A stretch of 64,000 nucleotides of DNA from a virus. Both the position numbers and the translations under genes were made by a program. Positions 7,737 through 64,000 of this stretch are shown one piece after another (position 1 is the stretch's first letter; each line of letters opens with the position of its first letter). Where the stretch lies: IMG/VR virus record IMGVR_UViG_3300041405_000166, positions 26,792 to 90,791 of that record; one strand, given 5' to 3'. Below the pieces are notes generated by a model, which was not told where the DNA came from, did no database searches, and saw only the letters and a list, made by a program, of their open reading frames with translations.

Positions 7737-9337
7737 AAAATACCAGGACACCAATTCCGGTTCACGAACCACAAATCAGCGTGCTGCTGCTGAAGAACGT
7801 GGCGCGTGATTATGTCGCCGGTGGTGACGGGCTTGGCACTGAGGCGCCGGCTTCTGGTCGTTTCCAGGGCGTACAGAACCGAATCGATCTGACGCCATAC
7901 CTGGGCGAAGGTGGTGGTGTCCGGACGGCCAAGGGTGTCCGTGAGCCGGCGGGAAGCTTCACGGTGACGCTGGCGGACAAGATGTTCAATGGCGACAGCG
8001 CGCAGATGGAATCGTTGTACGGGCTCATTGAACCGATGGATGTCATTGAGATCCGTATGGCCCATGCGCCGACGAGCCCTGGAGTGGTCGTTGAATACCA
8101 GGGTCTGGCGGAACAGTTGCCAATCATCATGCGCGGCTTCGTCACGTCACCGCGCCGGGTCGAAAGCATAGATCCTAGTGGACGGCCTCAGCGCTCGATC
8201 ACTATCACGGGGATGGATTACGGCAAGCTGTGGCAGATTATTCAGATTCGCTACCTGGCCAACTACGTGTTGGGTCAGGAGCTGCTGACCACGCTGAAGT
8301 TTGCGCAGAACTACGGGGTCAACTCGAACGTCGATTTCACGCCCAATCAGTTCATTTATGAGGTGGTGCAGAGCGTGTTGAATTCGTTCACCACGAACAT
8401 GCGCACCAACTCGGGCATGGGCTTCGACGAGATGGGCGACAGCAATAGCCCGGTGCGTGACATCGAGGTTTTCGACCTGACGGTGCCGGATGCGCGCGTG
8501 TCGGCCTTCGGGGCGAACAGCTTCTCTGGCGGCACGCTGTACCAGATGCTCTGCCACTATGGCGACGTGGGTCCGTGGAACGAGTTGTACATGGAAGACC
8601 GTGAGGATGGCGTGGCGATCGTCTACCGCCCCAACCCGTTTTTCACGCCAGGCAATGACCTGGTGAATCCGCCGGCGGATCCCTACGAGCCGCCGGATGG
8701 CGAAGGCTTCGTGCAGGGCCTGGGCATCGTCACCATCGAGATCACCGATATCGACGTGATCAGTCTGAACACCGGGCGATCGGACGCGAATCTGGCCAAC
8801 TACTACTGGGTGGATAACCCGTCGTTCTCGCTGATCCAGGGCGAGACGCTGCGCCTGCAAGCAGCTGGGCTCAACCCTGAAACCTATTTCATCGAAAACT
8901 ACCGCAACAGTGCCCCCTGGCTGTATGGCTTGCGCATGATGCAGGTGCAGACCAATCAGGGTGGCCGCTTCGACTCGCAGAAAGAGCAGGAGCTGCTGGC
9001 CGGAAAAGGCGCATTGCAGTCCTGGTTAGATGAGCGCCGGGCGATCCTGGTGGCCAACAACCGGGACAACGTCGTGTTCGAGAACGGCCAGATGGTGCTC
9101 AAGGGTAACGAGCAGATCAAGGCCGGCATGTACCTGCGCCTGTGGCGGGGCAACATGTACGCTGATTACTACCTGACCCGGGTCGAGCATTCGTTTATGC
9201 CGTTCCGATCATTCATCACCACGGTGACGTTCGAGCGCGGTACCGGGTTCATCGAGCGGGCCAAACGTGGCAATGGGTTGCAGTCGCCGTATCTGGCGGA
9301 ACTGAATGGTGACGGTGTCTACAGGAGCGTCGAATGA
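7733..9337 (+). CDS. Baseplate hub protein (gp27/gpD-like candidate)
   Basis: 534 residues, starting in an ATGA overlap with the tape measure stop. Beta-rich segments such as GSFTVTLADKMFNGDSAQME and ITITGMDYGKLWQIIQ are typical of hub proteins that bind the tube end and the spike. A conserved-looking C-terminal region (MYADYYLTRVEHSFMPFRSF) matches the cell-puncturing hub pattern. It lies between tape measure and spike, the usual hub position, and overlaps the spike gene by 4 nt. Family assignment is by pattern and order. Confidence 0.68.
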   Translation: MKNTRTPIPVHEPQISVLLLKNVARDYVAGGDGLGTEAPASGRFQGVQNRIDLTPYLGEGGGVRTAKGVREPAGSFTVTLADKMFNGDSAQMESLYGLIEPMDVIEIRMAHAPTSPGVVVEYQGLAEQLPIIMRGFVTSPRRVESIDPSGRPQRSITITGMDYGKLWQIIQIRYLANYVLGQELLTTLKFAQNYGVNSNVDFTPNQFIYEVVQSVLNSFTTNMRTNSGMGFDEMGDSNSPVRDIEVFDLTVPDARVSAFGANSFSGGTLYQMLCHYGDVGPWNELYMEDREDGVAIVYRPNPFFTPGNDLVNPPADPYEPPDGEGFVQGLGIVTIEITDIDVISLNTGRSDANLANYYWVDNPSFSLIQGETLRLQAAGLNPETYFIENYRNSAPWLYGLRMMQVQTNQGGRFDSQKEQELLAGKGALQSWLDERRAILVANNRDNVVFENGQMVLKGNEQIKAGMYLRLWRGNMYADYYLTRVEHSFMPFRSFITTVTFERGTGFIERAKRGNGLQSPYLAELNGDGVYRSVE

Positions 9338-10113
9338 ACGGCAGCGGAATCAGTCTTGCGAAGGTCACTCGCGTGGTCCCTGGTGGCCATGCTGTCGACT
9401 TGCTGTTCATGGACACTGGCGATCGCGTACCAGCCGTGCAGGTGATGACCGGATATGCCAGTGGTGATACAGGTCTGGTTGACCTGGTGCAGCCAGACCA
9501 AGGCGAGGACCAGTGGGACCCGAGCCGTATTGGCGAGCGTGAGGTAATCGCCTGCGTCAGCTATTACAAAAACATCCCGGTGGTGATCGGCTTCCTGTTT
9601 CCTCAGGTCTGCCAAATGCTCTTCGATCGGCAGAACTTCAAGGTGGACCGGCACGCATCGGACGTTTACACGACGACCGATAATGACGGCAATCACGAGC
9701 TGTTCCATCCGTCCGGCACCTATCTGCGCATCGGCACGGCGCCAGCGCATGAGGACCTGACCGGGTTGGACTTCGACAAGAAGTGGGCGATCACTAAGAA
9801 CACCGACAAGGCCGTGCATGTGCATTTGTCGGTGCGCAATGCAGGCGCTGAGGTGGCCAGTCTGGATATCGATCCGGCGGGCAATGTCACCCTTGGGCAT
9901 TCCGGCAACTACACGCAGAACGTCGGTGGTGATTACGCGCTGATCGTGGCTGGAAACTCGTCCAAGAACGTGACCGGCTCGGAAACGCTCACGGCCGATA
10001 CAGTGCAGATCAACAGCACCACGCTCAAGCACAACACCAAAAACATCGGCGATACGCACACCCATGGTAGCGGTGCAGTGATCACGGGTATCACGCCGGT
10101 TCCAAACGCTTAG
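9334..10113 (+). CDS. Baseplate central spike (gpV/gp45-like)
   Basis: 259 residues. The N-terminal ~90 residues look like the OB fold of spike proteins (VDLVQPDQGED...). Then comes a repetitive beta region, residues ~170-235 (GNVTLGHSGNYTQNVGGDY, NSSKNVTGSETLTADTVQI), typical of a trimeric beta-helix. The C-terminus GDTHTHGSGAVITGI carries the HxH motif that binds iron at the apex of P2 and Mu spikes. The protein would form the membrane-piercing needle. Its 3' end overlaps the convergent accessory gene by 4 nt. Confidence 0.85.
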   Translation: MNGSGISLAKVTRVVPGGHAVDLLFMDTGDRVPAVQVMTGYASGDTGLVDLVQPDQGEDQWDPSRIGEREVIACVSYYKNIPVVIGFLFPQVCQMLFDRQNFKVDRHASDVYTTTDNDGNHELFHPSGTYLRIGTAPAHEDLTGLDFDKKWAITKNTDKAVHVHLSVRNAGAEVASLDIDPAGNVTLGHSGNYTQNVGGDYALIVAGNSSKNVTGSETLTADTVQINSTTLKHNTKNIGDTHTHGSGAVITGITPVPNA

Positions 10114-10790
10114 CGTATCTGCGCCTGCGGGATAAACCCCGGAACCACCTGGCCGCCCACCGGAGCCTCGACGGCATAAACCCTGTCGTTCGGCTCCCCC
10201 GTCACGGTGATCATGTCGCCGGCGAATACCGGAGCACAGCCATTCTCCTGGATCAACATCTTGGCCCCCAGCGAATCACCGGCATCAAGGCGCGACTGAT
10301 ACAGCTCGGCGGCGATCGCCTGGCGGCACATGAACACCGTTTTCGTCAGCACCGTGGCCGCCTGAGCAGGCATCAGGTCAGGTGCTGGGGTCAACATCGG
10401 GGTCATGAAGTAGCCATCAATAACCTGGTCGTTGACGTTGCGCATCAGGCCGCGGGTGGTGTCGCCTTGGACGTCGGTCACCACCACCACAAACCCTTTG
10501 GGTGCCTTGCCGCAATTGCCAGCTCGAACCGTGGATAGATAGCCAGGGTAATCCTCGGCCATGATGCGCGCCTTGGCGGCCATGGTGATCTGCGCATCAG
10601 GGCAGTAGAAGGTATCGCGGGCAACACGATACGCCTCGACATCATCTGCGGCCTGGGCCGGGGTGATCATGCTCACCAGGGCGAAGGCGAACAGCAACGC
10701 GCCAGCGATGGCGAAGGGCGTTGTGAGAATCGTCCAGGCCCGCTGACGGCGAGCTTCGAGGACAGTGTTGCGAGTGGCCTGGGATTTCAT
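10110..10790 (-). CDS. Exported or membrane-anchored accessory protein, unknown function
   Basis: 226 residues. A basic N-terminus (RRQRAW) is followed by a hydrophobic helix, residues ~20-42 (ILTTPFAIAGALLFAFALV), then TPAQAADDV, which resembles a signal peptidase I site. The body contains four cysteines (FYCPDAQ, GNCGKA, FMCRQA, NGCAPV), possibly paired in the periplasm. Last gene of the minus-strand cassette that also contains PhaZ. AGAGGTA stands 12 nt before the ATG. No family recognised. Confidence 0.72.
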   Translation of the reverse strand: MKSQATRNTVLEARRQRAWTILTTPFAIAGALLFAFALVSMITPAQAADDVEAYRVARDTFYCPDAQITMAAKARIMAEDYPGYLSTVRAGNCGKAPKGFVVVVTDVQGDTTRGLMRNVNDQVIDGYFMTPMLTPAPDLMPAQAATVLTKTVFMCRQAIAAELYQSRLDAGDSLGAKMLIQENGCAPVFAGDMITVTGEPNDRVYAVEAPVGGQVVPGFIPQAQIR

Positions 10791-10850
10791 GATGCGTTAC
10801 CTCTTCAGGTGTGTGGTCTTCGTGGTGGACGGGTTAGATTTTCAAGCAGC

Positions 10851-11696
10851 CTATGCTGGTACTGCCGAGTCTGCAGATTCCTCGTCATCAGTCGTGCCAG
10901 ACAGAAACCCCATGATGATCGGGGCGACCGTGGTGGCCTTGGTCACCAGGAACAAATGCCCGTCGTCGATGACGTGCAAGGTGGCGTCAGGGATCAGTGC
11001 GGCGATCAGGCGCATATTGACCAGTGGGATGATCGGATCATCATTGCCAGCCAGCACCAGTGTTGGCTGCTTGATCCGGCGCAGCCAATGCAGACTGGTC
11101 CAGAACCAAACGGCCATTCCTTGGTAGGCATAACCGCGGCCACCAGTGGATTGCATCTTGGCGGCGTGGCTAGCGGCCAGCGCCTTGTCGTGGCGGAAAA
11201 CTCCACCGTAGATTTCCGGTGCGATTTTGGCGCCGTACTCGGGGTCGGTATAACGTCGCGGGCTGGACATCAGCGCCAAGACTTTCGGGGACGGCATGAC
11301 GCTCAGGATTCCAGTCGAAGTCGCCGCGAGAATCAGTTTTGTGCAGCGCTGCGGGTAATCATTGGCGAATTGCTGAGCCAGGAAACCGCCCCACGAAACA
11401 CCAATGACATTGACTTGGTCGTATGCCAGGCAATCCAGCATCTTGGCCACGGTCTTGGCCAGGCCGCTGAACGTGTAAGGCAGGCGTGGCGTGGATGAGC
11501 CACCTACGCCTGGCACGTCGAAGGCAATCACTTCCTGATCATGATCCAGGGCCTGCACGAACGGGATCACCAGCTCAAGGCTGGCACCGATGCCGTTGAG
11601 CACCAGCAGCGGGGTGAGGTTTGGATTGCCTGGGCGCACCGCTGTTCTGATGGACTGGCCATCGACCATGACAGTGCGGAAAACAAATTCTTTCAT
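10851..11696 (-). CDS. phaZ: PhaZ-like polyhydroxyalkanoate depolymerase (alpha/beta hydrolase)
   Basis: 281 residues, about the length of cytoplasmic medium-chain-length PHA depolymerase PhaZ of Pseudomonas, which hydrolyses intracellular storage polyester granules to 3-hydroxy fatty acids. From memory of that family, long stretches coincide: FRTVMVDGQSIRTAVRPG, VIAFDVPGVGGSSTP, VNVIGVSWGG, TSLHWLRRIKQPTLVLAG and VIDDGHLFL. The catalytic triad is intact: Ser101 in G-V-S-W-G, Asp220 (after GND) and His247 in DDGH, each one residue below the published PhaZ numbering 102/221/248. No signal peptide, so it should act in the cytoplasm. Good ribosome site (GGAG, 11 nt). A general alpha/beta hydrolase with another ester substrate cannot be excluded. 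Confidence 0.85.
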   Translation of the reverse strand: MKEFVFRTVMVDGQSIRTAVRPGNPNLTPLLVLNGIGASLELVIPFVQALDHDQEVIAFDVPGVGGSSTPRLPYTFSGLAKTVAKMLDCLAYDQVNVIGVSWGGFLAQQFANDYPQRCTKLILAATSTGILSVMPSPKVLALMSSPRRYTDPEYGAKIAPEIYGGVFRHDKALAASHAAKMQSTGGRGYAYQGMAVWFWTSLHWLRRIKQPTLVLAGNDDPIIPLVNMRLIAALIPDATLHVIDDGHLFLVTKATTVAPIIMGFLSGTTDDEESADSAVPA

Positions 11697-11776
11697 CTCT
11701 GTTGCTCCATGCTGCTCGGCGTGCCGGGCGTTTCGGGTTTTTGTGCTGGCGAAGCCCGCACTGGGCGGGCTTGCTG

Positions 11777-11932
11777 TTATTGATCGCTGCGGCGGCGACC
11801 TTTGTTTTGGCGTTTCAGTTGAGCGCCATCAAGGTCATCGGCGCTGGAATACCAGACCAATAGTCCAGTCCCGACAATAGCGAGGATGATGACGAGCGCC
11901 AAAATAAGCAGCGGGATTATTTGGTCAAGCAT
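11777..11932 (-). CDS. Small single-pass membrane protein
   Basis: 51 residues, ATG at 11932, TAA at 11777. A transmembrane helix fills residues ~5-28 (IIPLLILALVIILAIVGTG); the C-terminal half is charged and strongly basic (KRQNKGRRRSDQ), so the tail probably faces the cytoplasm. A strong AAGGAG ribosome site lies 5 nt upstream. Part of the minus-strand accessory cassette, between PhaZ and two small soluble proteins. Function unknown. Confidence 0.7.
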   Translation of the reverse strand: MLDQIIPLLILALVIILAIVGTGLLVWYSSADDLDGAQLKRQNKGRRRSDQ

Positions 11933-12005
11933 GGCGACTCCTTGGGTTGGGCTTCCTTGGTACTGGCGAAGCCCCGATTAAGGGGCTTAAGGTGGTCGGG
12001 GTTGG

Positions 12006-12260
12006 TTATGCCGGGAAAAAGGCGGTGCCGCGTGTGATCGTGTAATGAACCTCGAAGGTGCCGTCTGAGTGCAGCGCTACAAGGCGATGCGGCGCACCGT
12101 TCTTATAAAGGTTCGCTTGCTCTTCCAAAGCGGCCAAGCCTTGCACACGGTTACGCGGTTTGATGTCGTCTTTTTGCAGCCATTCGGCGTGCTTGCTGGC
12201 CTCTTCAATGTTGGACCAGTTGCCGCCAAAAACTTGTTGAATCTGGATGCGGTATTTCAT
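12006..12260 (-). CDS. Small accessory protein, unknown
   Basis: 84 residues, soluble, with aromatic and charged residues through its length (VFGGNWSNIEEASKHAEWLQ). It follows the next gene upstream by 14 nt in the minus-strand cassette, with GGAG in the spacer (ACGGAGCAAGACGCG). No family recognised; possibly a host-modifying moron product. Confidence 0.6.
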   Translation of the reverse strand: MKYRIQIQQVFGGNWSNIEEASKHAEWLQKDDIKPRNRVQGLAALEEQANLYKNGAPHRLVALHSDGTFEVHYTITRGTAFFPA

Positions 12261-12274
12261 CGCGTCTTGCTCCG

Positions 12275-12502
12275 TTACTTTGTGCGTTTGTTGAACAGTG
12301 CGGTCGCCGCTTCGAGCGTCATTTGCTGCTCGACGTAGCGCCAGGTTTTCACGTCACGGCCTGCGACGTAGTTGACGCAGAGCTTCCACACGCCATAACC
12401 AGCATCCTCGCCCCAATGGTTGGTCGACTTCATCAGTGCGAAAGTCGATTTGCCAGACTTGTTGGCCTTGACGGAGATCTTGGTGTGGGCGGCTTTGGTC
12501 AT
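12275..12502 (-). CDS. Small basic accessory protein, first gene of moron cassette
   Basis: 75 residues from ATG 12502, which has GGAG 9 nt upstream. The frame is open to an ATG at 12613, but that would overlap the promoter and give an implausible cysteine-rich N-terminus. The protein is basic (KISVKANKSGKS, FNKRTK) with several Trp/Tyr. A strong sigma70-like promoter lies 40-70 nt upstream, so this gene probably starts the transcript that also carries PhaZ. Confidence 0.62.
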   Translation of the reverse strand: MTKAAHTKISVKANKSGKSTFALMKSTNHWGEDAGYGVWKLCVNYVAGRDVKTWRYVEQQMTLEAATALFNKRTK

Positions 12503-12540
12503 GGCGGTGGCTCCGTGTTGTTCGTCTTGGCTACAACTTA

Positions 12541-12569
12541 AATATATCCATAGCTGCACATCTTTGCAA
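12541..12569 (-). promoter_or_regulatory. Host-type sigma70 promoter of moron cassette
   Basis: On the minus strand TTGCAA (12569-12564), 17-nt spacer, TATATT (12546-12541). The predicted start is about 30 nt before ATG 12502. It uses the same TTGCAA box as the recombination operon promoter at 25887-25892. Confidence 0.65.
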
Positions 12570-12598
12570 CTACAGATACAAAGTAATTTCACCGCTTG

Positions 12599-12605
12599 TC
12601 GTGAC
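12599..12605 (+). promoter_or_regulatory. TCGTGAC motif before baseplate gene
   Basis: TCGTGAC ends 14 nt before ATG 12620. The downstream bases GCACCATCCTG match those at 1016-1026 (GCATCATCCTG). It would restart late transcription of baseplate genes after the inverted cassette. Confidence 0.5.
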
Positions 12606-12619
12606 AGCACCATCCTGTC

Positions 12620-13783
12620 ATGAGCACACCATCGTCCCAGAAATCAGACGTCCGCCCGATCAGCTTCCTGCTCCAGGACCTGAGCAACGGCAACGACCTG
12701 ACCAGCGTCCCACTGAACATCCGCCCAGCTGATCTGACGCGGGTCGAGCCGTCGCGCGCCTCGGTGCAGCAGACCCTCGGCGGGGCCTGGCTGGATAACT
12801 GGGGGCCCGGCATTCGCCAGGTGAACATCAACGGGCATACCGGCTGGCGTGGCAGCAACTATGAGGACGGCATGGAGCTGTTCCGGACGCTGAACAACAC
12901 CGTATTCAAGAGCTGGCACGAGAAACGGCGCCTGGCGATCAGTGCCGGCCGGGATCCTGAGTTGATTCAGCTGATCTTCGCCGACCTGCTCGATGACTTC
13001 GTGTACGTGGTTGCCCCGATGAACTTCACGCTGCGCCGGAGCAAGCAGAGCCCGCTGCTGATGCAATACCAGATCAGCATGCTGGTGCTGTCTGAGGACT
13101 TGGTCGACCTGAAGAACAAGCTACGTCCGCCAGCGATCTTGCCGGGTGACATCGCGGTACCTGAGGCGCTGAAAACCCTGAGGGAGATCCTTGGACGAAT
13201 CCGCAACTTTGCCACCAGCGTGGGTAACTTCATCAACGGCACCATTGGTGCAGCCGTCCGATCGTTCATGAACCTGACGGCCGATGTCCTGGCGGTGACG
13301 GTCGAGACGATCAGTTCGCTCAAAGGTTCGTTTGATGAGGTTGCCGGTCCGCTGCTGTCGGTAGCCACCGACCTGGCCCAGGCCGGGCGCAACATCATGT
13401 GCACCGTCGCCACCGTGCAATCGCTGGGGACCTTCGTCAAATCCAGGATCATGGAAATCAGCGGGGCCTTCACCTACGCCTTGTGCCTGCTGAAAAACGC
13501 TTTTGGTGGCGGCAAGAAATACCCGGACTATTCCGACTGGTACGGCGCGAGCAACTGTTCGTCCATCTCAGGTGGTCGTCCGCTGTCGCCGCTGCGCTTC
13601 GAAAACCCGTTCTACAAACTGACGCCGAGTCCGAGCACGCCGATCACCCAGACACCAGAAGCGCGCAATTCCATGAAGCTGCTGGTAGGCATGGATGTGT
13701 TATCGACCACGCCGACCATGGACATGGAGTCGAATATCCGCTCGGTGAATGACGGCACGGCTGTCGTTGAGGCTATCGCATGA
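12620..13783 (+). CDS. Baseplate protein with N-terminal tail-linkage domain
   Basis: 387 residues. The first ~165 residues carry a pattern known from baseplate or tail-linkage proteins: PLNIRPADLTRVEPSR, TLGGAWLDNWGPGI and INGHTGWRG. The middle (res ~190-300) is a long helical, partly hydrophobic region. The C-terminus is Ser/Pro/Thr-rich. It starts 14 nt after a TCGTGAC element and its stop overlaps the next gene (ATGA). Probably links the hub to the wedge; the exact homologue is not identified. Confidence 0.65.
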   Translation: MSTPSSQKSDVRPISFLLQDLSNGNDLTSVPLNIRPADLTRVEPSRASVQQTLGGAWLDNWGPGIRQVNINGHTGWRGSNYEDGMELFRTLNNTVFKSWHEKRRLAISAGRDPELIQLIFADLLDDFVYVVAPMNFTLRRSKQSPLLMQYQISMLVLSEDLVDLKNKLRPPAILPGDIAVPEALKTLREILGRIRNFATSVGNFINGTIGAAVRSFMNLTADVLAVTVETISSLKGSFDEVAGPLLSVATDLAQAGRNIMCTVATVQSLGTFVKSRIMEISGAFTYALCLLKNAFGGGKKYPDYSDWYGASNCSSISGGRPLSPLRFENPFYKLTPSPSTPITQTPEARNSMKLLVGMDVLSTTPTMDMESNIRSVNDGTAVVEAIA

Positions 13784-19109: not shown

Positions 19110-19597
19110 TCACCTTCGAGCGCATGCGCACCGCCATGGTGTTGTGCCTGATGCTGGCCTTGGCCGTGCTGTGCAACCTGGCGCCAGATGAATCAAAGCC
19201 TTGGCATATCGCTCAGCTGCTCATGGTCGGCGGCGTGTACATCGCTCGCGACTACCTGCAAACGCTGATCGGTGATTACCTGGTGCTGATCCCCATGGGG
19301 TTGCTGGTGCTGATCATCTGGTCGGCCTCGGAAAACCCTTATGCCTCCTCGAGCGGCTTCCTTATCGGGTTGACGTTTGGCTGGGCCATATTCTCGCAGT
19401 CGCATCAAACGTCTGTGCTTAAACGGATGCTTTCATCCGTGCTGGTGGCTTGTGCGGTCGATAGCGGGATCTACCTATCCGCAATCGGGCGAATGGATGG
19501 ATTCGTTTCTGATACGGCCATGAAGGTCGTGCCATTAGCATTGTTGTATACCGTAGTGAGGACACGACAGTGCCTGAAGACCAACAAGAGACTGTAG
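19106..19597 (+). CDS. Multi-pass membrane protein of the lysis region
   Basis: 163 residues from ATG 19106 (ATGA overlap). Five hydrophobic segments are visible: ~10-24, 40-48, 58-77, 84-97 and ~110-125. This is unusual for a classical holin (1-3 helices) but possible for a large holin-like protein or a membrane accessory factor. It lies two genes before a small holin candidate. Function uncertain. Confidence 0.6.
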   Translation: MITFERMRTAMVLCLMLALAVLCNLAPDESKPWHIAQLLMVGGVYIARDYLQTLIGDYLVLIPMGLLVLIIWSASENPYASSSGFLIGLTFGWAIFSQSHQTSVLKRMLSSVLVACAVDSGIYLSAIGRMDGFVSDTAMKVVPLALLYTVVRTRQCLKTNKRL

Positions 19598-19944
19598 GAC
19601 ATCCCGAGAGCGACATTGAGTCGTTACGTCGTGAAGTCGTCAACAACTCAAACCTGATCAAGGAAGTGGTACATCTTCATCGCCGTTTGACGGACAACTT
19701 TCAGGAAATGGTGAGGCTGGATACCAAGGTATCCGACGTTACTGAGTCGATCGTCGAGATGCAGCAGTTGCTGAGTCGTCAGCAGACGATGCTCGACATC
19801 CTGATGACCTGGCACAACAACCAGAAAGCCGTGCGCAGCGCGCTGGGCTGGCTGATCGACAAAGCCCCAACGCTGGCCGCGGTCGCGGTCTTTATGTTCT
19901 GGGTGCTTGACCAATGGCAGAACAAAAAGGGCGGTGGCAGCTGA
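19570..19944 (+). CDS. Coiled-coil protein with C-terminal membrane anchor
   Basis: 124 residues from GTG 19570, with GAGGA upstream; overlaps the previous gene by 28 nt. Residues ~14-80 form a heptad-rich coil (VSDVTESIVEMQQLLSRQQT), and residues ~96-112 are hydrophobic (APTLAAVAVFMFWVL). The topology is like antiholins or tail-anchored lysis regulators. Family not recognised. Confidence 0.6.
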   Translation: MPEDQQETVGHPESDIESLRREVVNNSNLIKEVVHLHRRLTDNFQEMVRLDTKVSDVTESIVEMQQLLSRQQTMLDILMTWHNNQKAVRSALGWLIDKAPTLAAVAVFMFWVLDQWQNKKGGGS

Positions 19945-20180
19945 TGAAAATTATCCCCGAGTGGCGTGAAGCCTGGCGCTTTACCAGTGTGCAGGCGCTG
20001 TTGTTGTTGCAGTTTTTGCCGGAGCTGATCAGCACCTTTATCGACTATGCGCCGGAGACCATGGACCTGACGATTTACCGTGTGGCCCTGGCCATTGCGT
20101 TGATCGCCAGGTTCATCTATCAGCCAAAAGCCCGCGAAGCCACTGCGAGTGATGATGATGCCGCCAATCAAGAAGGGTAA
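19944..20180 (+). CDS. Holin candidate
   Basis: 78 residues from ATG 19944, overlapping the previous stop (TGATG). MKIIPEWREAWRFTSVQALL and a second hydrophobic stretch, then RFIYQP and a charged tail, match a small holin-type family common in Pseudomonas phages, remembered but not checked. Two membrane helices (res ~15-33 and ~47-65). It directly precedes the SAR endolysin. It should form membrane lesions or dissipate the potential that activates the SAR enzyme. Confidence 0.7.
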   Translation: MKIIPEWREAWRFTSVQALLLLQFLPELISTFIDYAPETMDLTIYRVALAIALIARFIYQPKAREATASDDDAANQEG

Positions 20181-20697
20181 CCGTAAGTCGTGGCTCAGCG
20201 GTGCGGTGCTAGCGCTGGTGGCCGCGGGTGCCAGTGCTCCGGCGATCCTCGATCAGCTGACCATGGAGCGTGAAAGCGGTGGCCGGTATGAGCTCAAGGC
20301 GTATCAGGATGGCGCCAGGGTCTGGACCGTATGCGACGGCAAAACCGCTGGCGTCACGGCCACCACCACCATGACCAAAGAACAGTGCGACGCCTGGCGC
20401 GAATCTGAGATCGGACGGCGTCTGACGTTCGCGCACAACACCATCAGAGTACCGATGAGTGAGCCGGCCTGGGCCGCGTTTGGGCGGTTCTGCTACAACA
20501 TCGGTAACACCGGCTGCGCTGGTTCGAACACCGCCAAGCTAATCAACCAGGGCCGTCATGCTGAGGGCTGCAAGGCCATGCTCAACTGGCGCTACATCAC
20601 GCGCGATGGCAAGAAGGTTGATTGCTCGACTGAGCAGCCATGGTGCAAAGGCTTGTGGGAAGACCGCCAGGCCACCGCCGAGCTGTGCTTGCTGTGA
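20152..20697 (+). CDS. SAR endolysin, glycoside hydrolase family 24 lysozyme
   Basis: 181 residues. The start lies in a GTG-ATG-ATG-ATG run (20149-20160), and any of these could be used. Residues ~14-33 (WLSGAVLALVAAGASAPAIL) form a weakly hydrophobic Ala/Gly-rich signal-anchor-release helix. The catalytic part is E39/E41, then AYQDGARVWTVCDG with D53 and T59, matching the E-D-T triad of T4-type lysozymes. Six cysteines may pair in the periplasm. Cuts peptidoglycan after membrane depolarisation. Overlaps the spanin gene by GTGA. Confidence 0.85.
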   Translation: MMMPPIKKGNRKSWLSGAVLALVAAGASAPAILDQLTMERESGGRYELKAYQDGARVWTVCDGKTAGVTATTTMTKEQCDAWRESEIGRRLTFAHNTIRVPMSEPAWAAFGRFCYNIGNTGCAGSNTAKLINQGRHAEGCKAMLNWRYITRDGKKVDCSTEQPWCKGLWEDRQATAELCLL

Positions 20698-21203
20698 GCG
20701 CCTTGTTCAAGCTGGTGCCAATCTGGGTGTGGGTTGCCGTCGCCGCTGCGGTTGGCTTGTTCGTGCAGCACTCGATGCTAAGTGCTGTCCAGGCTGAACG
20801 TGATCGGTTTGAGGACCAGGCGAGCCAGGCACAGGCTCGAGTGACCTCGTTGCAGTCCACGGCCAAGTTGCAACGCCAGCTCACTGCCGATACGGAAAAG
20901 CGGGCCAACGATTACGATGGGGAATTGAAGAATGCCAATGCCGAACGCGACACACTGGTTGCTGGCCTCGATGCTGCTACTCACAGCCTGCAAGTCAGGG
21001 CCCATTGGGTGCCTGCCGCCAGAAAGTCAGGCGCCAATGTCAGCGCCACCGACGAACCTGATGGCGGATCCTGCCGACTTGATGCCTCTGCTGAACAAGC
21101 TTATCCAAGTCTCGAAGCCGGAATCAAAACCCAGCGGGCCCAAATAATCGGCCTGCAGGGTTACGTGCGCGATCTGCTCAAAGCCTGCAAAATCGGTCCG
21201 TGA
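20694..21203 (+). CDS. Rz: Inner-membrane spanin (Rz-like)
   Basis: 169 residues from GTG 20694 (GTGA overlap with the endolysin). A single N-terminal helix (LVPIWVWVAVAAAVGLFVQH) is followed by a long periplasmic coiled coil (AERDRFEDQASQAQARVTSL). This is the standard i-spanin design. An outer-membrane lipoprotein partner is encoded inside it in another frame. Together they fuse inner and outer membranes in the last step of lysis. Confidence 0.85.
   Translation: MSALFKLVPIWVWVAVAAAVGLFVQHSMLSAVQAERDRFEDQASQAQARVTSLQSTAKLQRQLTADTEKRANDYDGELKNANAERDTLVAGLDAATHSLQVRAHWVPAARKSGANVSATDEPDGGSCRLDASAEQAYPSLEAGIKTQRAQIIGLQGYVRDLLKACKIGP
20932..21147 (+). CDS. Rz1: Outer-membrane spanin lipoprotein (Rz1-like), nested in Rz
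   Basis: 71 residues, embedded in the +1 frame of the i-spanin gene. The signal peptide ends in a lipobox (LLLTAC), so the mature protein starts at lipid-modified Cys20. Pro-rich segments (CLPPESQAPMSAPPT) are typical of o-spanins. GGGGA precedes the ATG. Complete nesting in Rz is the lambda-type arrangement. Confidence 0.85.
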   Translation: MPMPNATHWLLASMLLLTACKSGPIGCLPPESQAPMSAPPTNLMADPADLMPLLNKLIQVSKPESKPSGPK

Positions 21204-21272
21204 TGCTATAGTCCAGGTTCCTTGTGAGTGATCCGCAACGAACCCTGAGGGCATCATCATGTGAACCACAAC

Positions 21273-21297
21273 AAAAAAGGCCCCGCGGGGCCTTTTT
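21273..21297. terminator. Bidirectional terminator between lysis and recombination operons
   Basis: AAAAAA, GGCCCC, centre GC, GGGGCC, TTTTT: the A and T tracts make it work in both directions. It separates the convergent lysis (+) and HU/recombination (-) operons. Confidence 0.9.
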
Positions 21298-21313
21298 CAA
21301 TATGTGAGTGGTA

Positions 21314-21592
21314 TCAATTCAAGGCGCTGCGGATCTGCTTGGCCGGGATGAACTTCACGGCGACGGTTTCCGGGATCTCGCCCATAGTCCCCTGCTGAAT
21401 GTCATACCCCTTGCGGGCTTTTCGGTTGTATTTCTTCAAGGTGCCGACGCCGGGCAATACGGCCTTGCCGTCGGCGAGCAGGGTGTGGGCCAGGTCATTC
21501 ATCATCTCGGTGAAAATGCTGTTGGCGGCCTTTTGCGTGTAACCGCGCGAGGTCAGGCTGTAAATGCACCGGTCTCTCAAATCATTCGACAT
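21314..21592 (-). CDS. HU/IHF-family DNA-binding protein
   Basis: 92 residues from ATG 21592 (AAAGGA 8 nt upstream; longer in-frame starts give a low-complexity His/Arg N-terminus and are rejected). The order matches the HU fold: helical N-terminus (GYTQKAANSIFTEMMNDL), VLPGVGTLKKYNRKARKGYD beta arm, then TVAVKFIPAKQIRSALN. HU proteins bend DNA and help replication, recombination or packaging. It is the last gene of the recombination operon. Confidence 0.85.
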   Translation of the reverse strand: MSNDLRDRCIYSLTSRGYTQKAANSIFTEMMNDLAHTLLADGKAVLPGVGTLKKYNRKARKGYDIQQGTMGEIPETVAVKFIPAKQIRSALN

Positions 21593-26309: not shown

Positions 26310-27778
26310 GTTCGATTCAGCTCAGGCCGTACCAGGCTGCCGGGGTTGAAGCGATCCGCGCTTCGTTCAAGGCAAAAAATCGGGCAGTGCTGTATGTGTT
26401 GCCCACCGGCGGCGGGAAAACTTTCACGTTCAGTTACGTGGCAGATGGAGCGACCAAGAAGCAAAACAAGGTTCTGATCCTGGTCCACCGTAAAGAGCTG
26501 TTGATGCAGGCATCGATGTCGTTGGCGAAGATGGGGCTCAAACATTGCCTGATCGCCCAGACCGAGCATATCCGCGAGATCCAGCACCAGCAGCTCAGTG
26601 AGCTGGGTCGGTTGTACTTGAGCGAGACGGCGAAAATCGCGATCGCCAGCGTAGGGACTTTGGTCAATCGGCTGTCGACCACCTGGTCGCCTGATCTGAT
26701 CATCCCGGACGAAGCGCACCACTGTCAGAAGGATAACACCTGGGGCAAGATCCTCGGCTTCTATGATCAGGCGCGCATCCTTGGCGTGACCGCGACACCA
26801 ATCCGCTCTGATGGTAAGGGTATGGGCGTCGACTTCGGTGGCCTGTTCAATGACCTGGTGGTTGGGCCGTCCATGAGCGAGTTGATCGCGCTGGGCTATC
26901 TGTTGCCGTCGACCGTGTACGCACCGCCGACCGCCTTGGATCTGACCGGAGTGCGTTACGGCAGCGGCGGCAAGGACTTCATTCAAAAGGAGTTGGTAGA
27001 AGCGGTGGACAAGCCCGTGATCACCGGCTCTGCGGTCAAGCACTATGGCAAGTTGTGCCCGGGCCTTCAGGCGCTGGCGTTCTGCGTCTCGGTCTCGCAC
27101 GCCGAGCACGTCGCGGCCGACTTCCGTGCCGCCGGCTGGAAATTCCAGTCGATCGACGGGACCATGCACAGTGCCCAGCGCCGCTCGTTGATTCACGGTC
27201 TGACCACTGGGCGCCTGGATGGCTTGAGCAGCTGCGACATCGTTTCCGAAGGTACGGACATTCCGGTAGTGGGTTGCGGGATTCTGCTGCGGCCAACACA
27301 GAGTACTGGTCTGCATATGCAGCAAGTTGGGCGGATCCTTCGACCGTTTGAAGGTCAGGACCGGGCGATCGTGCTGGACCACGTTGGCAACTGCGCCAAG
27401 CATGGCTTGCCCGAAGAGGACCGCGAGTGGTCCTTGAGCGGTGAAGTGAAACGCGGCGGCAAGAAAAACGAAGTGAATATCCGTGTGCTGCAATGCGATA
27501 CCTGCTGGGTTACCTTTGCCCCCGCACCGCAATGCCCGAACTGCGGAACGGCGGTAGAATTCAAGGGTCGTGTGGTCGATGAGGTTGACGGTGAGCTGCA
27601 GCGGGTCGAGGCCGAGCAGGCGATGCAGATGAAGCGCAATCGGGCCTTTGAGCAGAGTCAGGCCAAAACACTCGAGGAGCTGGTCGAGCTGGCCAAGTCG
27701 AAACGCTACAAGAATCCGCACGCGTGGGCCCGGCACATTCTTCACGGGCGCAAAGCAAAACAGGGTGCTAGGGCATGA
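26306..27778 (+). CDS. Superfamily 2 DEAD/DEAH-box helicase
   Basis: 490 residues. Q-like LRPYQ at the start, motif I PTGGGKT (33-39), motif II DEAH (135-138), motif III GVTATP, and motif VI LHMQQVGRILRP (~res 335-347). A C-terminal zinc ribbon CDTCW...CPNC (res ~397-413) precedes a coiled tail. This is the UvsW/RadD-like architecture used in branch migration or replication restart. It overlaps both neighbours (ATGA), as part of the replication operon. Confidence 0.9.
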   Translation: MSSIQLRPYQAAGVEAIRASFKAKNRAVLYVLPTGGGKTFTFSYVADGATKKQNKVLILVHRKELLMQASMSLAKMGLKHCLIAQTEHIREIQHQQLSELGRLYLSETAKIAIASVGTLVNRLSTTWSPDLIIPDEAHHCQKDNTWGKILGFYDQARILGVTATPIRSDGKGMGVDFGGLFNDLVVGPSMSELIALGYLLPSTVYAPPTALDLTGVRYGSGGKDFIQKELVEAVDKPVITGSAVKHYGKLCPGLQALAFCVSVSHAEHVAADFRAAGWKFQSIDGTMHSAQRRSLIHGLTTGRLDGLSSCDIVSEGTDIPVVGCGILLRPTQSTGLHMQQVGRILRPFEGQDRAIVLDHVGNCAKHGLPEEDREWSLSGEVKRGGKKNEVNIRVLQCDTCWVTFAPAPQCPNCGTAVEFKGRVVDEVDGELQRVEAEQAMQMKRNRAFEQSQAKTLEELVELAKSKRYKNPHAWARHILHGRKAKQGARA

Positions 27779-38857: not shown

Positions 38858-39580
38858 ATGGAATCAGTGAAGAAAAAACGCGACATGGATTATTGCTCGT
38901 ATGACCTGGGCGGGTTTGTTGGGACCCTTCCTGAGCACGCGGCGCGTCAGGGCTTGTCCGCTTCGACCGTGCGTTCGCGCAAAAAACGCGGGTGGAAACT
39001 GTCGGAAGCACTCGGCTATGTGAAACGCACCGGGCCGGACAATCCATCGATTCTGGTCGCGCCACGTCGCCTGGCCATCGAGATGAAATACGAAAAGCTG
39101 TTCGACGAAGTCCTGGCGGACCTGCAGGCCGAAGGCTTGTCGATCTGCGCAGCGGCGAAACGGCTCGACTATGATGAGCGCGCCCTGTATCGCTACCTGG
39201 CCAAGCGGCCAACCGATAACCCATGGTCGGAGACCACCTATTCGCCGGTGGCGGTGCGCTTCAAGAAAGCCAGCGGCATGACCATTGCTCAGTGGCTGGA
39301 GCTGCACGCGGCGAAGTACTCGCTGACGCAGGCGGCTTCCTTCCTTGGGTATTCGTCGATCACCACAATGCGCTCCTACCTGGTGGCCAATGGGTTGAAA
39401 CCGACGTTCCGCAAGCAGGGCAAGCACGCCGAGCACCGCGGCGCTATGCGCAACCTGACCGACCATGCAGCAGCAGCGGGCATCCCGATCGGGACCATCA
39501 GCGCCAGGATGCACCGCGGCATGACGTTGCACCAAGCATTGACCACTCCCGTTGCCAGGCCCAGGAGGAAAGCCCAATGA
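38858..39580 (+). CDS. Protein with repeated helix-turn-helix-like modules
   Basis: 240 residues. Four HTH-like segments: LPEHAARQGLSASTVRSR (~24), SICAAAKRLDYDERALYRYL (~95), LTQAASFLGYSSITTMRSYL (~150) and LTDHAAAAGIPIGTISAR (~200). The first and last modules are clearly similar, and each is followed by a GW/GM plus ALG/ALT tail, so they are an internal duplication. Likely binds DNA as a regulator or endonuclease accessory factor. Overlaps the next gene by ATGA. Confidence 0.62.
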   Translation: MESVKKKRDMDYCSYDLGGFVGTLPEHAARQGLSASTVRSRKKRGWKLSEALGYVKRTGPDNPSILVAPRRLAIEMKYEKLFDEVLADLQAEGLSICAAAKRLDYDERALYRYLAKRPTDNPWSETTYSPVAVRFKKASGMTIAQWLELHAAKYSLTQAASFLGYSSITTMRSYLVANGLKPTFRKQGKHAEHRGAMRNLTDHAAAAGIPIGTISARMHRGMTLHQALTTPVARPRRKAQ

Positions 39581-39957
39581 CCGTATCTGAAGACATCGCA
39601 GCGGCGCGAGCCCAGTACGAAGTCGCCCGCGCAGCCAAGACCGGTGAAGCCACCAACTGTCCGACCTGCAAGGTGCTGCTGATCAAGTCCAACTATCAGC
39701 AGGTGTTCTGTTCGAACTCGGGGGCGGGTAACTGCAAGGATCATTACTGGAACCTGTTGGCGCAGCGCAACCCACTGGTGCCGAAGGCGAAGCGGACCGC
39801 CCACGAGCATATGACGCGACAGCTGATCAAGCTGCGGCCTTTGGTGGTGGCGGCGATGACTGAGGATTCAACCAACGATGAGCAGGTCGATGGCCGTTGG
39901 GCGCAACTGCAAAAGCTGCTCGAGCGCGTCGAGGAGGTGATCAATGATCCTCGCTGA
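39577..39957 (+). CDS. Small protein with Cys motif, unknown
   Basis: 126 residues from ATG 39577. CPTCKVL and FCSNSGAGNC near residues 28-53 may bind zinc. The C-terminal half is helical and acidic. Coupled to both neighbours by overlaps. Confidence 0.56.
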   Translation: MTVSEDIAAARAQYEVARAAKTGEATNCPTCKVLLIKSNYQQVFCSNSGAGNCKDHYWNLLAQRNPLVPKAKRTAHEHMTRQLIKLRPLVVAAMTEDSTNDEQVDGRWAQLQKLLERVEEVINDPR

Positions 39958-61801: not shown

Positions 61802-62832
61802 TCTTCTTGTTTCCGGGTGGTGGCCATGACGATCGCTTGCACGACGGAAATGGCATTGTCTTCTGTTGGGTCGGCGCTGAAGTCCTGAAGCATGTCATGG
61901 ACGTGCGGCAGGTCTGAAATCTCCTGAGCGCCTTCCCAGTCCGGCTCGGCATGGCGGGCCGACTCTTCGATCAGCAAGCGCTCGAGTTCCTGGTCGATGC
62001 AGGTCAGGCAGACATAACCGCCCATTGGGTCAACGCGCAATGGCGTATGCTTGTGCTTGCCGCATCCGGCACAGTTGGTGGACTGGCTGGAAAAGTAAGT
62101 GAGTTGTTGCGGGGAACGTTCGAGGAAGCGGACCGCCTCGCCTACGTCTGAGTTCAAATGCTCGTGATACCAACGATCCAATGGCGTTTGGTCGATCTTC
62201 TTGAGCAGCATCAGAAGCCGTTTGCGCTCGGCCTGCAAGCCAGCCACGTAGGCGTCCAGTTCTACGCGTAGCGGAACAGGCTCGACTGGAACGGCCTGGC
62301 TCGCCGCACACGGACCGTCGTGGCCTTTTGCGCGTGAACAGGTCCAACCTGGCGGTGGAACGTCGCATTCGCCCGTGTTGGCCTCGCTCAATCCTCGCAG
62401 ATACCCGCGCTGTTCCGTCGCATCTAGGTCGACCGGCTGCAGGTAGATTTCAGCGCTACCGTCCTCGGCACACATGTCGTTGGCCTCAGGGCAGGCGAAC
62501 AGGACCAGGCCGGCCACTTCCAGCGCAGCAATGCCGCCCTCGAGCGTCCATTCGATGTAGATCCCGTCTTCGCCTTCGCGGGTAACTCCAACCGCTTCGA
62601 TGGTGATCGGCTCCTCGACTTCCGGCTCCGCACAGGCATCCTCGCGCCATTTGAGGATTTCAGCGTGGCTGAAATACATGCCTTCAATGAGGACAAAGTC
62701 TTTGCCATGTTTCGCATAACCCGCATCAAGCACAGCCTCGGCCAACGAATACAGCGAGCTGCACGGCACGGCCTGCATGATGTCATGCAGTGGTTTTACT
62801 GCTGCATGACGTCTTTCTGTTTTGTCGCTCAT
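61798..62832 (-). CDS. Unknown protein with zinc-binding cysteines
   Basis: 344 residues from ATG 62832. GWTCSRAKGHDGPC (a short Cys-His cluster) and NCAGCGKHKH...VCLTC give two possible metal sites. A helical middle (YVAGLQAERKRLLMLLKKID) lies between. The N-terminus DIMQAVPCSSLYSLAEAVLD is helical. No family recognised. Confidence 0.58.
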   Translation of the reverse strand: MSDKTERRHAAVKPLHDIMQAVPCSSLYSLAEAVLDAGYAKHGKDFVLIEGMYFSHAEILKWREDACAEPEVEEPITIEAVGVTREGEDGIYIEWTLEGGIAALEVAGLVLFACPEANDMCAEDGSAEIYLQPVDLDATEQRGYLRGLSEANTGECDVPPPGWTCSRAKGHDGPCAASQAVPVEPVPLRVELDAYVAGLQAERKRLLMLLKKIDQTPLDRWYHEHLNSDVGEAVRFLERSPQQLTYFSSQSTNCAGCGKHKHTPLRVDPMGGYVCLTCIDQELERLLIEESARHAEPDWEGAQEISDLPHVHDMLQDFSADPTEDNAISVVQAIVMATTRKQEE

Positions 62833-63623
62833 TGATTCAGCTCCTTGACCTTGTCGAGGCAGGCGTTCCACTGCTTATTGCTGTGTGATTCAAGGCCTGC
62901 TGGAATTGACACGCGATACGGTGGCAGAACCACCGATACCGGCGCGGGCTGCGAGGTGTAGAGCGCGTGCACTTCGGCCTCCATAGGGTGACCACTGAGA
63001 GCTGTACGCAAGTGAACCTCGGCGTTGTGCTTAGTTGGAAACAACCAGCTCCCGTAGCGCCCTTCTCGGAAGGTCCCGAATCCTACCGGCTCACCCTGCT
63101 CACCCTGCCCACCCTTCAGCCGCGAAACCGTATCGTTCAACTCGTTGTTCTTGTTGCGCATCGTTTCTACGTCAGCCGTCAGCCGTGCAATGGTGGCTTG
63201 CAGTTCCTCACTCTCGTCGTAGAGCTTTGTCAGGGCGTCTTCAACATCAGACACCGACTTGGCGTAAACCTCGTGGCCGTCACCGTCACCCGGCACAACG
63301 TCCAGCATGATGTTCGTGACGCTGAGGGCTTGCAGTTCGGCGAGTTCGGGCGGGGCGGTGTAGAGGGGTTCCTCCGGCACATCGTCCAGCAAGTCTTTCA
63401 AATAGCTGGCTACTCGCGAGCACTCTTCCCTGCTGCTGAAATCGACATAGCCGAAGCCATACCACATATGCCCGCGAGCATGCTCTGGTAGTTGATACGC
63501 CACCGGCTGGCGCTCGACGACAGGGGCGGCGATCCCGTTACATGCGGTGCAAGTATGACCAGTGCCGTCGTATTCGATGCCTGTGCCATTGCAGGTCTTG
63601 CACGCTTCAATTTTACTGCTCAT
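62829..63623 (-). CDS. Unknown protein with DnaJ-type zinc motif and coiled coil
   Basis: 264 residues from ATG 63623. CKTCNGTGIEYDG and CTACNGIA are two CxxCxG repeats, the signature of DnaJ-like zinc fingers. A coiled coil follows (TIARLTADVETMRNKNNELN) and a C-terminal region similar to other phage small proteins (WLFPTKHNAEVHLRTAL). Function unknown. Confidence 0.6.
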   Translation of the reverse strand: MSSKIEACKTCNGTGIEYDGTGHTCTACNGIAAPVVERQPVAYQLPEHARGHMWYGFGYVDFSSREECSRVASYLKDLLDDVPEEPLYTAPPELAELQALSVTNIMLDVVPGDGDGHEVYAKSVSDVEDALTKLYDESEELQATIARLTADVETMRNKNNELNDTVSRLKGGQGEQGEPVGFGTFREGRYGSWLFPTKHNAEVHLRTALSGHPMEAEVHALYTSQPAPVSVVLPPYRVSIPAGLESHSNKQWNACLDKVKELNQ

Positions 63624-63870
63624 TCGCTTGCTCCTTAAATCGTGCAACTCTCTTGGAAAGCAGCAGGTCGTTTTCATCGCAAACTTTAACGTCACCCCAC
63701 CGCAGGCCGTCCATGATCGCCAATGCTTCTGCCGATGCTAGACCGCCGCGCTCAGCAAGGCGTTTCAGGCTTTGTCCGTGGTTCCTCATGGCCTGCGCGT
63801 CATTGAGCATTGCCATCGGCATGCTGCTCAGATACTTACTTTTCATGATCGGCATTGACTCGCGGCTCAT
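63613..63870 (-). CDS. Small protein, unknown
   Basis: 85 residues. Two or more ATG choices (63870, 63846). Helical (AQAMRNHGQSLKRLAERGGL). Start overlaps the upstream stop. No family recognised. Confidence 0.52.
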   Translation of the reverse strand: MSRESMPIMKSKYLSSMPMAMLNDAQAMRNHGQSLKRLAERGGLASAEALAIMDGLRWGDVKVCDENDLLLSKRVARFKEQANEQ

Positions 63871-64000
63871 TCGCTTGCTCCCGATTCGGTGGGTTTGTTC
63901 TTCTCGATAGACTCTGCTAGCCAGCGCTGTAGCGATTCCTCGTAAATGGTTTCGCCCTCGCAGTGATCCAGCAGGTAGCCAACGAATTGATCGAACACCT
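63867..64000 (-). CDS. Partial gene running off the window end
   Basis: Minus-strand frame from the window edge to TGA 63869-63867, 43 residues visible: helical and acidic (QFVGYLLDHCEGETIYEESL), ending NKPTESGASE. Overlaps the next gene by ATGA. Start lies beyond the window. Confidence 0.5.
   Translation of the reverse strand, partial: VFDQFVGYLLDHCEGETIYEESLQRWLAESIEKNKPTESGASE

Follow-up and report, generated by a model that had tools for sequence, protein, structure and literature searches.

We find that a ~91-kb myophage carries an intact gene of the PhaZ family of PHA depolymerases among its tail genes, and we put at roughly six in ten the probability that this gene serves as an auxiliary metabolic gene for a phage-borne intracellular depolymerase of medium-chain-length PHA (mcl-PHA), which would hydrolyse the granules of a Pseudomonas-type host to feed replication. 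Among soil and plant-associated bacteria, PHA is one of the major carbon reserves. The sequence analysed, here called the window, is a stretch of 64,000 nucleotides that runs from base 26792 to base 90791 of a virus record 90,791 bp long (IMGVR_UViG_3300041405_000166). The properties computed from it and from related sequences are membership of the PhaZ family, a catalytic triad and lid fold, location in a phage genome, accessory insertion, a clade that spans different phages and purifying selection, and these are taken up in turn below.

We infer a course of events in which the phage, while infecting a Pseudomonas-type host, would make its own PhaZ from a moron cassette. The enzyme would bind host mcl-PHA granules via its lid, and its Ser-Asp-His triad would cleave the polyester to (R)-3-hydroxy acids, which host acyl-CoA synthetase and beta-oxidation could turn into acetyl-CoA and reducing power to fuel replication. 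In a starved or carbon-storing cell, an unregulated viral PhaZ could tip the host cycle of synthesis and degradation towards breakdown. Intracellular mcl-PHA degradation has been described as Pseudomonas-specific (PMC12504323), and the hosts of cultured relatives of the window phage include P. putida and P. syringae. A more far-reaching version, in which the viral proteins would constitute an old and distinct class of phage PHA depolymerase with a remodelled lid, dismantling granules fast and without regulation, moving as a stand-alone mobile module and forming part of a programme for starved, granule-filled cells, seems to us possible, if on the whole doubtful.

The phaZ-like gene is a 281-amino-acid open reading frame on the minus strand (window 10851-11696), a strand that the original prediction had left unspecified, with an ATG start and no internal stop. 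In a profile search, its product scored 424.4 bits (E 1.9e-127) against NCBIfam TIGR02240 'poly(3-hydroxyalkanoate) depolymerase', an equivalog model with a curated cut-off of 250.6 bits, and the match spans model positions 2-264 of 276 (residues 3-265 of the window protein). The second-best family reached 122 bits, well under that family's cut-off, and Pfam returned general alpha/beta-hydrolase families only. TIGR02240 is also passed by all ten of a diverse set of viral relatives, among them the most divergent member of the main viral clade (314-426 bits, 63-175 above the cut-off), and the nearest bacterial relatives of the window protein are Pseudomonas PhaZ enzymes, 66-71% identical over the full length. 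Assignment to a generic esterase, lactonase or PcaD family was dropped, since such models score far under their cut-offs. Thus, both the original prediction of a full-length, in-frame PhaZ homologue and the profile comparison with general hydrolases that it had proposed are borne out, and at the level of sequence the protein is confirmed as a member of the PhaZ family rather than a generic esterase, albeit one that may have an altered substrate range.

The genomic context of the viral genes differs from that of bacterial phaZ. In the phages, phaZ lies outside any phaC1ZC2DFI cluster, the usual context in Pseudomonas and not a requirement of the equivalog model. Furthermore, phaC was absent from all 28 viral phaZ records tested for it, and phasin was absent from 20 of 20, as was an AMP-binding (acyl-CoA synthetase) or 3-hydroxyacid-activating enzyme, with Pseudomonas controls positive in each case. 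The window phage itself has none of the three, so that the lack of phaC and phasin nearby that the original prediction had noted is upheld by these searches and can be extended to AMP-binding enzymes. Since the phages lack an AMP-binding enzyme, any benefit from PhaZ would depend on the host.

The catalytic residues are conserved throughout. Ser101, Asp220 and His247 are invariant in an alignment of 38 viral and 35 Pseudomonas PhaZ sequences and align with the Ser102/Asp221/His248 triad of PhaZ-KT2440 (PMC12504323), in agreement with the offset of one that had been read from the window sequence. Equally invariant in these sequences is Asn34, the equivalent of Asn35 of PhaZ-KT, which is essential in that enzyme in that its mutation abolishes activity (PMC12504323). 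The AlphaFold model is an alpha/beta hydrolase with a mean pLDDT of 89.2 and disorder only in the tail (271-281), and a multi-helix cap (137-197; blocks with pLDDT 71-96) is inserted between core strands in the same place as the KT2440 lid, an alpha-helical element over the active site with published limits of 133-192 (PMC12504323). Structure searches returned esterases and lipases in general and do not discriminate the substrate.

We then compared the lids. Twenty core positions are diagnostic, meaning that Pseudomonas PhaZ has a fixed residue there from which at least 90% of the viral proteins differ. Such positions make up 12 of 65 in the lid and hinge (133-197) versus 8 of 198 elsewhere (Fisher p 0.0005), or 9 of 60 versus 11 of 203 when the lid is delimited as published (Fisher p 0.023), an enrichment that, with positions picked by threshold on a limited sample, is a correlation and not proof. 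The diagnostic lid and entrance changes (KT numbering) include G136P, K137S, V182M, W192Y/L, L194, F195 and G197V. Within the FNGIG hinge segment the phages keep NGIG, the window protein reading LNGIG, and the YYWQLF hinge segment, the deletion of which kills PhaZ-KT (PMC12504323), is YAYQGM in the window protein, with only Y and Q conserved among phages. Just outside the lid, 48 of 57 viral proteins have Phe at position 105, which follows SWGG, whereas all 35 Pseudomonas sequences have Ala. The pattern of the first alignment scan (WGGFLAQ) could favour Phe105; a rescan with SWGG[FA]LAQ yielded nine viral members with SWGGA, of which six branch basally within the viral clade, and Phe105 is therefore derived within the clade rather than clade-defining.

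These lid changes bear on the possibility that the PhaZ scaffold has been re-tuned for another ester, such as a membrane lipid, an acyl lipid, a lactone signal or PHA with a different chain length. Position 184 is Ser in the window protein and in only 15 of the 38 viral proteins overall, and in PhaZ-KT the lid-hinge substitution S184F alone turns the depolymerase into an esterase, nearly abolishing the original activity (PMC12504323). Substrate choice in PhaZ-KT is governed by changes in the lid (PMC12504323), which makes a shifted or relaxed specificity of the viral enzymes possible, and the enrichment of diagnostic substitutions in the lid, the predominance of Phe105 and the non-discriminating fold matches all fit such a shift. 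Against it stand the margins by which all ten viral proteins exceed the TIGR02240 cut-off, the invariant triad and Asn34, and the position of the viral proteins next to Pseudomonas PhaZ in the tree. Lids evolve fast in general, so that their enrichment in substitutions does not by itself prove a new substrate, and we consider a different ester unlikely to be the target.

The phage itself is related to Dolphis and Touem01, two cultured phages of Pseudomonas. Its tail sheath shares 66% identity with the sheath of Bordetella phage PHB04 and 55-58% with the sheaths of Aeromonas phage ST4 and the Pseudomonas phages Jeremy, Dolphis and Touem01; all five are phages of ~91-95 kb with a contractile-tail sheath. 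Tail sheath, tube and baseplate genes with cultured homologues surround phaZ, and a minus-strand cassette (10114-12619) breaks the run of plus-strand tail and baseplate genes. The features of this region are as follows (window coordinates; G010 is a sibling phage described below).

9334-10113, plus strand: left border, baseplate spike/gpV-like gene, conserved in PHB04, Dolphis, Touem01 and ST4 (35-51% identity)
10110-10790, minus strand: moron gene 3' of phaZ, 226 aa, with a probable signal peptide or anchor and no family match
10851-11696, minus strand: phaZ-like gene, 281 aa, triad S101/D220/H247, GGAG-type RBS just 5' of the ATG, AlphaFold mean pLDDT 89.2
11777-11932, minus strand: one-TM ORF, 51 aa, directly 5' of phaZ, kept in G010
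12006-12260, minus strand: cassette ORF, 84 aa, no Pfam match
12275-12613, minus strand: cassette ORF, 112 aa, no Pfam match, first ~20 aa common to G010
12620-13783, plus strand: right border, baseplate (Mu gpN-like) gene, in synteny with four cultured relatives

The gap between the gpV-like and gpN-like genes measures about 24-113 bp in PHB04, Touem01, Dolphis and ST4, with one extra 273-nt same-strand gene between the two in Dolphis, and none of four cassette genes (226 aa, phaZ, 84 aa and 112 aa) occurs in the syntenic regions of these phages. As the site is empty or near-empty in all four cultured relatives, phaZ belongs to a moron cassette. The same locus recurs, with 100% protein identity, on another contig (L002); this recurrence and the syntenic cultured relatives rule out an assembly chimera. 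The gene sits in a bona fide phage genome and not in host flank. Terminase models phrog_2 and PF03237 (TerL) gave no match in the window phage, an absence of match that does not mean absence of a terminase. A promoter scan of the cassette found weak consensus matches only. Between the one-TM ORF and phaZ lies a GC-rich hairpin, AAGCCCGCACTGGGCGGGCTT (window 11752-11772), without a clear T-run on the minus strand.

Several further observations concern the rest of this genome. Minus-strand ORFs at window 62826-63897 share several stretches of 28-40 nt, at 90-100% identity, with phaZ phages that are otherwise unrelated (L008, L010, L012, L013, L033, L040 and L041). An N6_N4_Mtase DNA methylase gene (L006:4529-6349; about 19529-21349 of the window's parent record) contains an in-frame LAGLIDADG endonuclease domain close to the N-terminus, an intein-like or homing-endonuclease insertion. 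The group also has a second esterase, a GDSL-lipase/acylhydrolase, the gene for which is found at L005:3213-4610 in the window phage and, in Touem01, close to head genes (L172:1953-3338).

Alignment-based scans detected a PhaZ relative in 57 IMG/VR contigs of 5 to 307 kb from several metagenomes, with the phaZ ORF intact in nearly all of them. Among 50,697 annotated cultured-phage records there was no PhaZ at that similarity, the hydrolases found being only 24-33% identical. The carriers include sipho-like, myo-like and jumbo (>200 kb) phages. In a siphophage-like group, phaZ stands on the opposite strand beside the capsid gene phrog_771 and phrog_786; other carriers are an rIIB-bearing phage and jumbo phages with phrog_1062/phrog_16120 virion proteins, and further neighbourhoods feature DNA methyltransferases, an exonuclease or a reverse transcriptase. 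These differences between neighbouring genes indicate that the carriers are unrelated phages. One terminase model matched 15 of 43 phaZ records, and a second model matched 9 of 35.

Two arrangements directly 5' of phaZ are worth recording. A reverse-transcriptase gene (phrog_1423) takes up this position at L008:8780-9940. In the siphophage-like loci (L003, L019-L031), alignment by eye reveals a conserved same-strand frame ending in ...AEYERVLSFL-stop, which is likely to be a second cassette gene.

Gene neighbourhoods also bear on the timing and purpose of PhaZ action. Granules might be removed for non-nutritional reasons, such as freeing cytoplasmic space, providing 3-hydroxy acids as membrane-active lysis helpers, or weakening PHA-dependent stress tolerance, and the opposite-strand placement of phaZ within late structural regions, in the window phage and in the siphophages that carry it in their capsid module, would fit such late action. 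However, the sibling phage and several others carry phaZ in non-structural, early-looking neighbourhoods, which a metabolic role fits better, and no link of phaZ to lysis genes was seen. We therefore regard removal for these other ends as distinctly improbable, while noting that its enzymology would be the same as in the nutrient model and that the two are inseparable in silico.

The sibling, G010 (IMGVR_UViG_3300046794_000505), is ~75-82% identical to the window phage at the nucleotide level over more than 20 kb, with 89% identity in the sheath, 90% in gpN and 83-92% in most tail proteins. Its tail slot keeps the 226-aa gene (77% identical) and the one-TM ORF, with no phaZ between them. Instead, its phaZ is found in a non-structural region (L016:9917-10828), with a start that overlaps the stop of a 240-aa gene equivalent to window 38858-39580, and encodes a protein 72% identical to the window PhaZ. 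The corresponding site in the window phage has no phaZ.

39581-39943, no strand assigned: early-region site matching the phaZ position of G010 (L016), without phaZ in the window phage

An AU test does not reject sisterhood of the two phaZ genes (p 0.25). They reflect either two acquisitions or one gene that moved, and in either case phaZ has been kept at two places. In addition, the GC content of phaZ tracks that of its locus and phage, from 0.41 to 0.62. A near-identical leader of ~45 nt precedes phaZ directly in L007, L008, L009 and L012, where the next upstream genes differ, and phaZ may thus travel with its own leader.

Estimates of dN/dS point to strong purifying selection on viral phaZ, with a median of 0.063 in the siphophage-like group (91 pairs, dS 0.49) and values of 0.13-0.15 among L007-L009; for pairs that involve the window gene the range was 0.13-0.20, at near-saturated dS.

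In a first phylogenetic tree, 34 viral PhaZ sequences and one gene from a P. silesiensis megaplasmid formed one clade (100/98), as did 43 viral sequences and the same megaplasmid gene in an enlarged tree (100/95), in which this main viral clade is sister to the chromosomal Pseudomonas PhaZ clade (98/91). This is not the placement among unrelated esterases that the original prediction had named as telling against it, in trees that held Pseudomonas and more distant bacterial PhaZ, non-PhaZ hydrolases being compared by profile score only. Three viral proteins (L206, L259 and L260) fall outside the main clade on long branches and look like separate acquisitions. One of these, from a 279,845-bp jumbo contig (L206; IMGVR_UViG_2974641675_000001), is an SWGGA PhaZ that is 50% identical to Pseudomonas PhaZ and groups with a Caballeronia gene. 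The megaplasmid gene (L129:2977-3870) encodes a phage-type PhaZ on a 1.17-Mb replicon of a Pseudomonas silesiensis isolate from a plastics landfill, and lies inside the viral clade with the siphophage-like group (96/93).

Of 399 Pseudomonas-genus genomes, 363 have a chromosomal phaZ. No viral-type copy was among the matches listed for them, identity to the window gene being 67-70%; conversely, a scan of the viral contigs with a bacterial profile found no host-like copy, the best match reaching 73% identity to the profile's lead sequence. Recent pick-up from a current host is ruled out, since viral copies are at most 73% identical to that lead sequence and none of the matches listed for the 363 genomes is more than 70% identical to the window gene. 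Tree and identities together indicate that viral PhaZ is a distinct phage-borne lineage moving among unrelated phages, rather than a set of fresh host captures. The description of phaZ as a single acquired gene accordingly stands as far as the lack of phaC, phasin and AMP-binding genes goes, and fails where it implies recent pick-up, since the gene belongs to a diverse phage-borne clade.

That phaZ is a functionless passenger, a host gene carried by chance, would suit a variable moron slot and cultured relatives that lack the gene, but we find this very hard to reconcile with one diverse clade under strong purifying selection in at least 57 contigs, with GC matched to each phage, with two different sites in sibling phages and with the lack of any host-like viral copy in the bacterial-profile scan. 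A role in lysogenic conversion, in which phaZ would serve the lysogen rather than lytic growth, seems just as remote: tyrosine integrases occur in 4 of 27 phaZ-bearing records, but a search confined to tyrosine integrases found none in the window phage and none in 22 further records, some longer than 80 kb (contigs that are possibly incomplete), and most Pseudomonas genomes already have a chromosomal phaZ.

Feeding of replication from host granules may be connected with a second gene. Outside the window, the same phage encodes a MESH1-like HD_4 protein, a putative (p)ppGpp hydrolase (bases 1302-1934 of the parent record, G000; L005), which is also present in the sibling (G010:C1:10602-10964), and it is possible that phaZ and this gene jointly reverse the starvation state. 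As HD_4 exceeds its Pfam cut-off in only 5 of 27 phaZ phages, we treat the pairing as a lead and not as a rule.

Viral PhaZ resembles PhaZ of Pseudomonas putida KT2440/KT2442 in its triad, its Asn35 equivalent, its lid-bearing alpha/beta-hydrolase fold and its match to TIGR02240; unlike that enzyme, the phage copies lie outside a pha cluster, form a separate clade, have a C-terminal tail of their own and bear lid and entrance substitutions, with A106F (KT numbering) in most members. A 2025 study of PHA-producing mixed cultures described phage genes for PHA synthesis (phaC, phbB, fadD and others) and proposed that they help this synthesis; it makes no mention of a depolymerase or phaZ (PMC12013262). 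The genes described here likewise represent phage-carried PHA metabolism from metagenomes, whereas phage phaZ would act in PHA breakdown and makes up a separate clade that runs across phages. As an opposite-strand accessory cassette among late structural genes, missing from relatives, the locus is like other phage morons, yet it carries a storage-polymer hydrolase in place of a toxin, exclusion or defence gene. Among PHROGs families, the window PhaZ best matches the phage esterase/lipase phrog_789 (125 bits), although only about 260 residues of that 637-position profile match, and none of the families matched is named PHA depolymerase. A search confined to open-access papers found no phage-encoded PHA or PHB depolymerase. 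The enzyme family is known, and the phage-borne PhaZ clade with its lid changes appears to be new. The presence of phaZ relatives in at least 50 other, very different viruses suggests that raiding host PHA stores is a widespread viral trick, undescribed so far.

If phages do bring a granule-degrading enzyme into the cell, host carbon storage would join photosynthesis and nucleotide pools as a viral target, and starved cells rich in PHA may be better phage factories than thought. The activity would be the degradation counterpart to the PHA-synthesis genes known from phages. Finally, the viral PhaZ proteins offer a natural set of variants with altered lids for studies of granule recognition and for the enzymatic recycling of mcl-PHA.
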